41,764 nucleotides of DNA from Treponema sp. (GTDB lineage: Bacteria; Spirochaetota; Spirochaetia; Treponematales; Breznakiellaceae). A program made the position numbers and the translations under genes. A model generated the notes under the pieces. It had not been told where the DNA came from. It saw only the letters and a program-made list of their open reading frames with translations, and made no database searches. Where the stretch lies: NCBI GenBank assembly GCA_031276295.1, contig JAISNI010000043.1, positions 1-41,764 of the forward strand. Reading direction: 5' to 3'. Positions within the stretch are counted from its first letter, which is position 1. Every line of letters starts with the position of its first letter. Positions 8,870-35,196 of the stretch are shown piece by piece.

Positions 8870-9511
8870 ATGATTTCCGGCCTCGGGCGCTGCCGGCCCT
8901 TCCTGCCTTTGCCCGGCATCCCCCTGTTCAAACCCTATCTGGGCATCTTCAGGCTGCGCTTTATCGCGGGGATGCAGTACCGGGCGGCAGCCTGGGCCGG
9001 GGTGGCTACTCAGTTTTTCTGGGGCGGTATGGAGCTGCTCATTTACGCCGCCTTTTACCGGTCCTCCGGCGCCGATCCGGGAACGGGGCCGGCGGCTTTC
9101 CCCTTCGGGCAGCTTGCCGACCTCATCTGGCTGCGCTAGCAGCCTGTTGCACTTGTGGATTTTTGTATATTCATGCAAAAAAATCCCGATTATCGGGGCT
9201 GCTTATGCAGTTTGCAAGGTATAAAAATTCACATTCGTGAATTTTTATACAATTTTGCGCTGAAGCGCAACAAACTGCTAGATTTTCCTGGCCCTGGTGA
9301 TGCTCTGGATCCAGGATGGGGAGCTTCTGACCATGGTGGAGAAGGGAGACGCGGCCTACGAATTCTGCCGGCCCCTCAGCCTCTATGCCTTCTGGTTCGC
9401 TAGGCTTTGCCATGCCTGGGGATGCAGTGTTTCTGGCTTGCCCTTCTTGGGGCAGACGGAATCCTGGGTTTCTGGATCATACGGAAACGGATCCTTTTCC
9501 AGGGGGGATAG
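8870..9511 (+). pseudogene. ABC-2 exporter permease (COG4587-like), in three fragments
   Basis: Remains of a membrane subunit that pairs with COG4586-type ATPases. Fragment 1 (8870-9135) gives FKPYLGIFRLRFIAGMQYR and TQFFWGGMELLIYAAFY. A 146-bp element interrupts it at a conserved Trp-Leu-Arg, and the frame resumes at 9282 with FLALVMLWIQDGELLTMVEK and ELCRP-like YEFCRPLSLYAFWFARL up to about 9407. About 150 residues are then missing, and the C-terminal tail GFWIIRKRILFQGG resumes in another frame (about 9413-9508). The stop TAG (9509) coincides with the first bases of a second element. The matching ATPase remnant is at 224-1202. Confidence 0.75.
9136..9281. mobile_element. MITE-like element 1 (146 bp) inside the permease gene
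   Basis: The ends are imperfect terminal inverted repeats: CTAGCAGCCTGTTGC (9136-9150) and GCAACAAACTGCTAG (9267-9281), 13 of 15 matching when reversed. Inside are a perfect 14-bp stem (9219-9232 with 9237-9250, loop ATTC), and a small TTGCGCT/AGCGCAA stem just before the right end. It has no coding capacity. It splits a recognisable permease sequence, so insertion is seen directly. A clear target duplication is not visible. Related copies lie at 9509-9653, 24766-24806 and 35131-35196, and a lone end at 17685-17708. Confidence 0.7.
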
Positions 9512-9653
9512 CATCCTGCCGCGCCTATGGATTTTTTATGCTTGATGCCGCGAAAAATCCCGGTTATAGGCTGCTTTCGTCGTTTACAAAGCAAAAAATC
9601 GGCTTTCAGCCGATTTCGGAGGTTCCATGCGCGAAACGCGACAAACTGCCGGG
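9509..9653. mobile_element. MITE-like element 2, diverged copy between the two broken permeases
   Basis: This follows element 1 along most of its length: TAGCATCCTGCCGC start, TGGATTTTTTAT, AAAAATCCCGGTTAT, a central stem (AAATCGGCT with AGCCGATTT) in place of the AT-rich stem, a CGCG-AAA-CGCG mini-hairpin and the end CGACAAACTGCC. It begins exactly at the permease stop codon. It contains GGAGG (9618-9622) and the ATG (9627) that open the next permease frame, so the copy seems to supply a ribosome-binding site and start codon. Confidence 0.6.
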
Positions 9654-9785
9654 GTAATCTACTTCAGCTATCTTGCCATGAATCTGAAAGGGGTGCTGTA
9701 GTACCGTTTCTCTGTCTGGCTTATCGCCCTGGGCCAGTTTTTTGTCGCCTTTTTCGGCTTTGTCAGTATCTGGCTTCTCATGGAA
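9627..9785 (+). pseudogene. ABC-2 exporter permease (COG3694-like), N-terminal remnant with in-frame stop
   Basis: The frame from ATG 9627 gives VIYFSYLAMNLKGVL, a TAG stop (9699-9701) where Gln or Glu is expected, then YRFSVWLIALGQFFVAFFG and FVSIWLLME, the first helices of COG3694 permeases. At about 9785 the sequence passes without a stop into a transposase fragment. The rest of the permease is absent. With 224-1202 and 8870-9511 it completes the ATPase-permease-permease set of a dead exporter. Confidence 0.7.
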
Positions 9786-10301
9786 GTGAACGCGAAGGGC
9801 TACAATAATTCCTTTGACTTTGAGAAACAACTATGGCTGCTGTATTCGTTTTCCGCTAAGATGAAGCTGCCGGTCTATTACCGGCTTTTGGGCGGAAACA
9901 TCGTGGATGTGGCGGCCATGGCCCTGTGCGTGGAGGAAATGGGCCTTTCCGACGTGGTGTATATCGCCGACAAGAGCTTCTACAGCGCGTCCAACGTGGC
10001 GATGCTGGAAGCGCGGAACCTGCGGTACATCATCCCGGTCAGGCGGGACAACCGGCAGATAGACTATGGTCCTCTGGGGGACGGGGAGTTCAAGGCGAAG
10101 CGCGGCCGTTTCACCTGGCAGGGGAGAATCATCTGGTACTATCAGCACGAGGTTGGGGGGCAGGCTTTTGTCACGTATCTTGACGACCGGCTTCGGGTGG
10201 AGGAGGAACAGGATTACCTGGTCCGTATTACGCCCCATCCTGAGACACACACGGAGGCGGGGTACCGGGAACGGCTGCGGCGTTTCGGGACGCTGACCTA
10301 A
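9786..10301 (+). pseudogene. IS1634/IS4-like transposase fragment
   Basis: About 170 residues of a DDE transposase core: GYNNSFDFEKQLWLLYSFS, PVYYRLLGGNIVDVAAM, VYIADKSFYSASNVAML (one catalytic Asp in ADKSF) and LRYIIPVRRDNRQIDY. The N-terminal part and everything after about residue 170 are missing, so the frame is non-functional. It is joined in frame to the truncated permease before it. IS1634 and related IS4-group families share these motifs; I cannot choose between them. Confidence 0.7.
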
Positions 10302-10329
10302 AAGCCGGAATAGACTACCTAAATGAGCG

Positions 10330-10860
10330 GAGTTAGGGTTTAACCCCTCTTCCAAAGGCAGGTTGTCCGCTTCGTCCGCCTTCGCTATCAGTTTTGCTAC
10401 TTCCTTCTCCGTTTCCTCTATCATCTCTACCGCTCGTTTGTAGCTCACCGCGCCGTGCTTGCCCGCGTACGGCTTCGTTCCGTCTACACTGATATTCCCT
10501 ACCTTCTTTAAAATGTCCCATCTCCCGCGCCATTACCAATACCTTTGTAAATACCTCTTTAAACCCTTCCCGGTTCTCGGTGCGAAACCGGCAGATCACA
10601 CGGTGATCGGGATGCGCGGTATTCCCGCAGATATATCTCACCGCCACATCCGTATTCATTAGCAGCATCACCATCATCGCAGGCGGATACTGCTCGCTTC
10701 CGCTTCCCGTTGTGTTCACTTTGAAATCGCTGACGTCCAGTTGTTCAACCGCGTCAACGATAAAATGAACCAGGTGATCTTCAGGCTATCCACTCCTGCA
10801 AATCCGCCGGAAACAACAAGGGGGTTCCGGTTCATATTAACAAATCGTGCGCTCATGGTT
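10330..10860 (-). pseudogene. IS1182-family transposase, decayed and truncated
   Basis: On the minus strand the pieces read, in different frames: LLFPADLQEWIA, then PEDHLVHFIVDAVEQLDVSD, then GSGSEQYPPAMM, NTDVAVRYICGN, HPDHRVICRFRTENREGF and MAREMGH, then NISVDGTKPYAGKHGAVSYK. This order is that of IS1182-type transposases. There are at least two frameshifts (near 10815 and 10515) and a deletion of roughly 15 residues before NTDVAVRYICGN. The C-terminal half is missing after about 10330. Confidence 0.7.
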
Positions 10861-10909
10861 TGATTACTGGATAATGTTCTTGTTGGCGATCCCTCGGAGG
10901 GGAAGCGCG

Positions 10910-10948
10910 ACAGGCTGCTATCGGACCAAAGATCCGATAGCAGCCTGT
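10910..10948. repeat. Long perfect hairpin made of element-end sequence
   Basis: ACAGGCTGCTATCGGA (10910-10925) and its exact reverse complement (10933-10948) flank a 7-base loop, a 16-bp stem. The right arm and its flank read AGCAGCCTGTTGC (10939-10951), the same as the terminal repeat of the MITE-like element at 9136. It lies between the IS1182 remnant and the second transporter and may also act as a terminator. Confidence 0.6.
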
Positions 10949-17587: not shown

Positions 17588-17693
17588 ATGCTGGAACAGA
17601 TCGATTTTACCGGCTTAACCCAGGAAGAAGTATTGGGACAGAACGGACTGGTCAAACAACTGACCGGATGGCTACTCCAAAAAGTCCATAAGT
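17588..17693 (+). pseudogene. IS256-family (Mutator-type) transposase, N-terminal stub
   Basis: From ATG 17588 (or GTG 17585): LEQIDFTGLTQEEVLGQNG then LVKQLTGWLLQKV, which matches the opening of IS256-type transposases. The frame then runs into the element-end repeat at 17694 and the rest of the gene is missing. Confidence 0.55.
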
Positions 17694-17708
17694 GCAACAG
17701 GCTGCTAG
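17685..17708 (-). repeat. Lone terminal repeat of the MITE-like family
   Basis: Read on the minus strand this is CTAGCAGCCTGTTGC followed by ACTTATGGA, identical to the left end of the element at 9136 except for one base in 24. It marks the join between the IS256 stub and the next transposase scrap, so it is either a solo end left by deletion or the end of a larger element of the same family. Confidence 0.6.
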
Positions 17709-24765: not shown

Positions 24766-24806
24766 GGTTTACGCTGAAGCGTAAAATCGTATAAAAATCC
24801 CCTCAG
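24766..24806 (-). repeat. Relic of the MITE-like family (right half)
   Basis: On the minus strand this reads ATTTTTATACGATTTTACGC then a TTCA loop and GCGTAAA, matching the right half of the copies at 9136 and 35131 (ATTTTTATAC, ACGATTTT, then the small hairpin). The terminal repeat has been lost. The TTTACGCT/AGCGTAAA stem may now serve as the epmA terminator. Confidence 0.5.
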
Positions 24807-35130: not shown

Positions 35131-35196
35131 GAAAATCGTATAAAACACTTTCGTGAATTTTTATACGATTTTGCGCTAAAACGCAACAAACTGCTG
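35131..35196. mobile_element. MITE-like element 3, right half only
   Basis: AAAATCGTATAAAA (35132-35145) pairs with TTTTATACGATTTT (35159-35172), followed by the TTGCG/CGCAA mini-hairpin and CAACAAACTGCT, the right end of the family. The left terminal repeat is absent. It lies between the Bmp gene and the coiled-coil gene and adjoins the truncated frame above. Confidence 0.55.

Follow-up and report, generated by a model that had tools for sequence, protein, structure and literature searches.

Why a permease-like gene in a Treponema genome should be cut by a short non-coding stretch is the question raised by this locus. The stretch lies at 9136-9281 of the window, the 41,764 nucleotides of contig JAISNI010000043.1 that were analyzed as a whole, and the original prediction took it for a MITE-like element with two hairpins. 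That reading is supported, and the best explanation, to which we give about nine chances in ten from sequence comparison, is that the repeat belongs to a MITE family that is a non-autonomous derivative of an IS1182-family insertion sequence (IS) and would be moved in trans by an IS1182-type DDE transposase binding the shared ends. The element is real, abundant and ordinary in kind, with a fold that is unusually well kept.

The 146-bp element reads CTAG-CAGCCTGTTGCACTT ... GCGCAACAAACTG-CTAG, with the inverted ends CAGCCTGTTGCACTT and CAGTTTGTTGCGC and a CTAG flanking each side (Table 1). It is short, has no coding capacity, with no ORF of at least 100 aa inside it, and is bounded by terminal inverted repeats, as expected of a MITE. 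Folded as single-stranded DNA, it reaches -36.4 kcal/mol against -15.8 ± 2.9 kcal/mol in 200 shuffles (z -7.2), none of which was as low. The long stem is formed by a perfect 14-bp arm pair (9219-9232 with 9237-9250), and a small CCCGATTATCGGG hairpin is present besides the left and right hairpins, so the non-coding element with inverted ends, one long and one short stem that had been predicted was confirmed. Its architecture is that of two adjoining palindromic halves, in which each end has its own internal partner, and not that of one long palindrome. The original prediction had also counted at least three copies and a lone end elsewhere in the window; relatives do lie at all four places, but they comprise one complete copy, two partial copies and one end.

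Table 1. Coordinates of the element, its parts and its relatives in the window.
Feature	Position	Strand	Evidence
MITE, full length, CTAG on both sides included	9136..9281	+	160.6 bits to the family model
Left CTAG (target copy / junction)	9136..9139	.	Sequence; flank statistics
Left terminal repeat CAGCCTGTTGCACTT	9140..9154	+	19 bases with CTAG identical to the 5' end of IS1182 element L095 (G001)
Left hairpin, helix 2 of the model	9157..9186	+	97.0% of cells paired, 85 copies
Internal GGGGCTGC, pairs with left end, helix 1	9195..9202	+	77.3% paired
Internal GCAGTTTG, pairs with right end, helix 3	9207..9214	+	98.5% paired, one covarying pair
Right (long) hairpin, helix 4	9219..9250	+	95.8% paired; 7 pairs changed on both sides
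Right terminal repeat GCGCAACAAACTG	9265..9277	+	Sequence, end-motif scan, comparison with IS1182 ends
Right CTAG (target copy / junction)	9278..9281	.	Sequence
Second, diverged full-length copy	9508..9652	+	61.6 bits, E 7e-13; right stem different, still paired
Decayed IS1182-family transposase gene	10498..10788	-	Two stretches matching NF033551, E 1.5e-8 and 4e-6
5' end of IS1182 remnant, MITE-type end	10903..10921	-	End comparison; adjoins upstream of decayed gene
Lone left end, 29 nt	17680..17708	-	Model/end match
Fragment of right part, 30 nt	24769..24798	-	Model/end match
Truncated right half	35132..35195	+	Model match

The element splits an ABC-2-type permease-like gene whose halves join in frame when one CTAG is kept, and the gene continues without a break in all 10 orthologs alignable at this position. 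The predicted interruption is thus upheld, while the name permease is weakly supported by an ortholog of the split gene that matches ABC2_membrane_3 with an E value of 3e-5 (below the Pfam cut-off) and by an adjoining ABC ATPase gene. The gap in the host gene amounts to 4 bases. At the position of the TAG in the window, all 10 orthologs hold a Gln codon (CAG or CAA), so CTAG either arose by earlier mutation of the target or was introduced with the element. An uninterrupted site was also found between rpoB and rpoC, where the own genome has a 19-bp gap and in the congeneric genome G001 an element starts exactly at the rpoB stop TAG; these two loci supply the empty sites that a MITE should have. 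Spanning alignments among all fetched loci returned self or nested matches only, and a search with longer flanks gave no clean empty site. Moreover, the rplJ stop codon in the rplJ-rplL gap carries an element in two different MAGs (L167 and L201), which reflects either a shared old insertion or parallel hits. In L201, the left half of this element is replaced by a CGGACAC..GTGTCCG hairpin.

Copies were also found well beyond the window, by means of the end and the covariance model, as had been foreseen. In the own genome, all 40 BLAST candidates that were scored, out of 236, were copies; 170 occurrences of the right-end 16-mer were counted when 2 mismatches were allowed, compared with 1 for the reversed pattern; and the covariance model gave 101 matches at E <= 1e-5, so that the copy number is about a hundred or more. 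At least 150 matches were found in G001, and dispersion on this scale in both genomes is typical of a MITE. In total, 8 of the 19 genomes searched with the covariance model have matches, namely the own genome (G000), G001 and a further six genomes from their family, where the number ranges from 1 to 14, while no copies were found in 4 of the 12 same-family genomes and 0 of the 7 genomes of other families carry any. The repeat family is largely genome-specific. An exact 29-mer scan of named GTDB contigs matched at least 104 stretches, and among the 80 matches listed all but one belong to MAGs labelled 'Treponema sp.' or 'Spirochaetaceae bacterium', from samples that we take from their isolate labels to be termite gut. 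The exception is a contig labelled Prevotellaceae (L136, JAISRS010000055.1), which carries the repeat and has the same sample label (Kf353) as other MAGs; it may represent misbinning or transfer.

The full-length elements with the same ends, which the original prediction had proposed to look for, were found to carry IS1182-family transposase genes. Since copies exist beyond the window, relatives have uninterrupted sites and the ends recur around a transposase, the MITE-like reading is supported. Eight of the 10 IS1182 transposase loci examined, from 24 places found, have a CTAG[C/G]AG..TGT.. end adjoining the gene. Two such ends enclose the gene in L095 (1770 bp), L229 (1655 bp, from G049) and L233 (1648 bp), and the surroundings of L095 and L233 are IS-like; these three provide the autonomous-type element with common ends expected for a MITE, and a MITE-type end on one side only is present at five further IS1182 loci and at own-genome remnants. 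The 5' end of L095, from G001, equals the left end of the MITE over 19 of 19 bases; an unrelated hairpin repeat with the motif GGTATTTGACTCAGGGTACATACCC occurs twice within the L095 gene and disrupts it. L229 has an open frame of 461 residues that scores 332.5 bits to NF033551 (cut-off 270) and matches DDE_Tnp_1_6, DUF772 and DDE_Tnp_1 in Pfam. In addition, L229 can be aligned over its initial ~80 bases to the right half of the MITE, including the hairpin position and the internal GCAAACTGC and AAGCAGCC; L229 may thus represent the type of IS from which the MITE arose, or else a chimera of an IS and a MITE. No such end was found in the stretches searched around the IS1182-type transposases of G007 (L094) and G010 (L096).

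A six-frame IS1182 profile search of eight genomes gave matches in six, none above the cut-off. When 267 residues of the best copy in G001 served as the query, 13 of 195 family genomes yielded relatives at E <= 1e-20. The own genome, an 83%-complete MAG, gave 12 fragmentary matches (best 117 bits), several of them at contig ends, but an intact IS1182 gene bearing MITE-type ends was not found there. One remnant lies in the window itself, and the reading across it (10300-10858) is full of stops. A plus-strand fragment at 9780-10301, wedged between the split permease-like gene and this remnant, is not part of it but IS1634-like (NF033559, 55 bits, below the cut-off of 100). At 10918-10938, two outward-facing element ends enclose a CGGACC..GATCCG palindrome, and palindromes of the form CGGACC..GGTCCG occupy loops or spacers in further copies (L029, L036, L037 and L038), as if a second small palindrome of this type were spreading on its own.

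The insertion sites bear on which transposase family is involved. Of the 346 end pairs from which the flank statistics started, 99 are flanked by TA at either end and were retained as elements, the other 247 being excluded; 76 of the 99 have CTAG on both sides. Four elements have a matched non-CTAG tetramer on both sides (three CTAT/CTAT and one ATAG/ATAG), which supports a 4-bp target duplication, while eight have one-sided ATAG-type flanks, which fit a 2-bp TA duplication better, given that a 4-bp duplication would predict the same tetramer on both sides. Other than a clean target duplication, every testable feature of a MITE was found in this family. MITEs of IS630/Tc1-mariner elements duplicate TA, with Correia-like repeats as a known parallel, and such an origin would agree with TA as the core of the flanks and with the one-sided ATAG/CTAG cases. 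It is nevertheless most improbable, since no DDE_3 locus, out of 14 from the own genome and its relatives, is bracketed by such ends, and IS630 was rejected as the partner on this ground; repeat copies or ends do occur near some DDE_3 loci of G001 (e.g., L082, L090 and L093) without bounding the gene, and the four elements with matched tetramers duplicate a non-CTAG 4-mer.

CTAG is depleted in the window, with 10 occurrences against 41 expected from trinucleotide counts, and 19 of the 99 elements abut another end across one common CTAG. Among the 202 TAG flanks of 143 elements, 36 coincide with the stop codon of an ORF of at least 100 aa, compared with 134 of 2468 YTAG sites taken as controls (odds 3.8, p 3e-9); this enrichment is inflated by gene-truncating insertions, and placement at stop codons is suggestive only. 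In the own genome (L010/L065, contig C99), two convergent genes appear to use the CTAG-type flanks of one 65-bp element as their stops.

The compensating changes that had been predicted for the long stem are real. They were counted on a structure of 41 pairs specified from one copy, a choice that favours the figure for cells paired, because RNAalifold unaided recovered no more than 9 pairs, those of helix 3 plus two others. The alignment comprised 85 of 86 non-redundant copies out of 93 found, one overlapping duplicate being removed. In these 85 copies, 94.0% of cells are paired, 15 pairs are doubly changed and 143 cells are double-changed, compared with 89.3%, 6.5 pairs and 50.4 ± 6.1 cells in shuffles (0 of 500 equalled the observed values), and slid partners, used as a control, pair in 37-53%. 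The left and right ends pair with each other in 79.3% of cells. Many of the double-changed cells come from a few lineage splits (UA/AU 44/37 at a right-stem pair and GC/CG 44/37 at an end pair), and the cell counts therefore overstate the number of independent events. In several further genomes, the right-stem sequences are wholly different yet still paired (rows L074, L140, L190 and L203:5376). Among 29 own-genome copies (median identity 0.91), the right-stem changes in 403 pair cells are 4 double, 3 single-kept and 5 broken, or 12 changed cells in all, against 7.2% of unpaired letters. These coupled arm changes would fit selection on folding and arm-to-arm copying alike.

Such covariation, the slower change of right-stem arms than of unpaired columns, the excess of stop codons among the TAG flanks and a terminator-like pattern inside the element might all be expected if the repeat were a structured RNA or bidirectional terminator kept by selection at gene ends, its mobility being incidental. 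We consider this very unlikely, as copies interrupt genes, the ends are common to IS1182, the repeat is largely genome-specific and lacking from the seven genomes of other bacterial families, a search of the window at Rfam gathering scores gave 0 matches, and terminators called by pattern are little above chance (7 against 3.3 ± 1.8).

Two smaller forms accompany the full-length copies. Nineteen own-genome sites consist of just the two ends around a 4-base loop (36 bases, or 38 bp with the outer C/G), and eight sites of this 38-bp form with the G001 end type are present in G001; the own-genome pattern found 0 in G001 solely because of loop length, while the second pattern, which found the eight, gave 0 in the own genome. 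At ten sites in the own genome the element is reduced to a core of 56 bases, or 64 when the CTAGs are counted, and all have one identical junction. This 64-bp form may be explained by deletion between GTGGATTTTT and GTGAATTTTT inside the element. Because both junction variants occur among the ten sites, repeated deletion at the individual sites is more probable than the spread of a single deleted copy. The 64-bp form was not found in G001, which says little, as the pattern derives from the own genome and the mediating direct repeat is altered in G001. No solo right module with CTAG on its inner side was found, apart from one truncated look-alike.

High-copy palindromes with end-to-end hairpins of ~38 bp recall REP/BIME-type palindromes moved by a RAYT (Y1) transposase. 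REPs, as far as PMC3733652 describes them, are single hairpins, 20-40 bp long, that bear a GTAG tag on one side only, whereas the present ends are symmetric with CTAG on both and the partner is IS1182; membership among GTAG-type REPs was accordingly rejected, and a RAYT origin has very little probability. Another proposal, itself rather improbable, is that the transposases of this IS1182 branch recognize the ends in their folded, stem-loop form, so that only a correctly folded end would be cut and the hairpins therefore kept, and the 38-bp hairpins (19 own-genome and 8 congener sites) would be complete transposons, among the smallest known, settling at CTAG stop codons without breaking genes. 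If only folded ends were cut, the coupled arm changes would be explained.

For the preferred reading, an IS1182-derived MITE family, the following course is proposed. The transposase would cut at the CTAG/CAG junction and insert at CTAG-like tetramers; such targets would be few and would coincide with TAG stop codons and with the ends of copies already in place, so that new copies would gather at gene ends and beside one another. The two-hairpin shape probably represents two IS ends joined, each with a subterminal hairpin, because one IS1182 copy (L229) bears the right half of the MITE as its 5' end. Recombination between repeats inside the element would subsequently shorten some copies to the 64-bp and 38-bp forms, within each genome.

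IS1182-derived MITEs are already known from Methanosarcina acetivorans, with ISMac2 as the partner (PMC3852290). As far as that report describes them, they share the transposase family and a similar size (160 and 169 bp), with inverted ends of 25-26 bp and a 4-bp direct repeat for one of the two; they differ in belonging to another domain of life and in being far less numerous (14 and 7 copies), and the likeness is one of published description. IS1272 and TnSha1 of Staphylococcus, also of the IS1182 family, are described as replacing hairpin targets without duplication, and stem-loops are central to their movement (PMC5678879, PMC4923244). In these accounts, the target hairpins of IS1272 are varied, while the boundary of the Treponema MITE is nearly always CTAG, a 4-base palindrome, and no non-CTAG hairpin target of an IS1272-like replacement was seen. 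The Treponema family thus resembles the ISMac2 MITEs in anatomy and may share with IS1272 and TnSha1 a liking for palindromes, as CTAG is itself a palindrome. GTAG/CGTC REP palindromes are likewise abundant, small and often paired or clustered, but as characterized in PMC3733652 they have an asymmetric tag, are shorter and are linked to RAYT. No report of an IS1182-derived repeat in termite spirochaetes was found in the open-access literature, and an abundant, strongly folded example like that of Treponema appears to be undescribed.

What the family offers is a dense series in which an IS of ~1.65 kb is followed by copies of 146 bp and 64 bp and finally by hairpins of 38 bp, all linked to the IS1182/IS1272 transposases, whose use of stem-loops is proposed and mechanistically unproven. 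The coupled stem changes and the placement at CTAG and stop codons make this stem-loop question testable. Moreover, the repeat may account for many of the contig breaks and split genes in these spirochaete MAGs.
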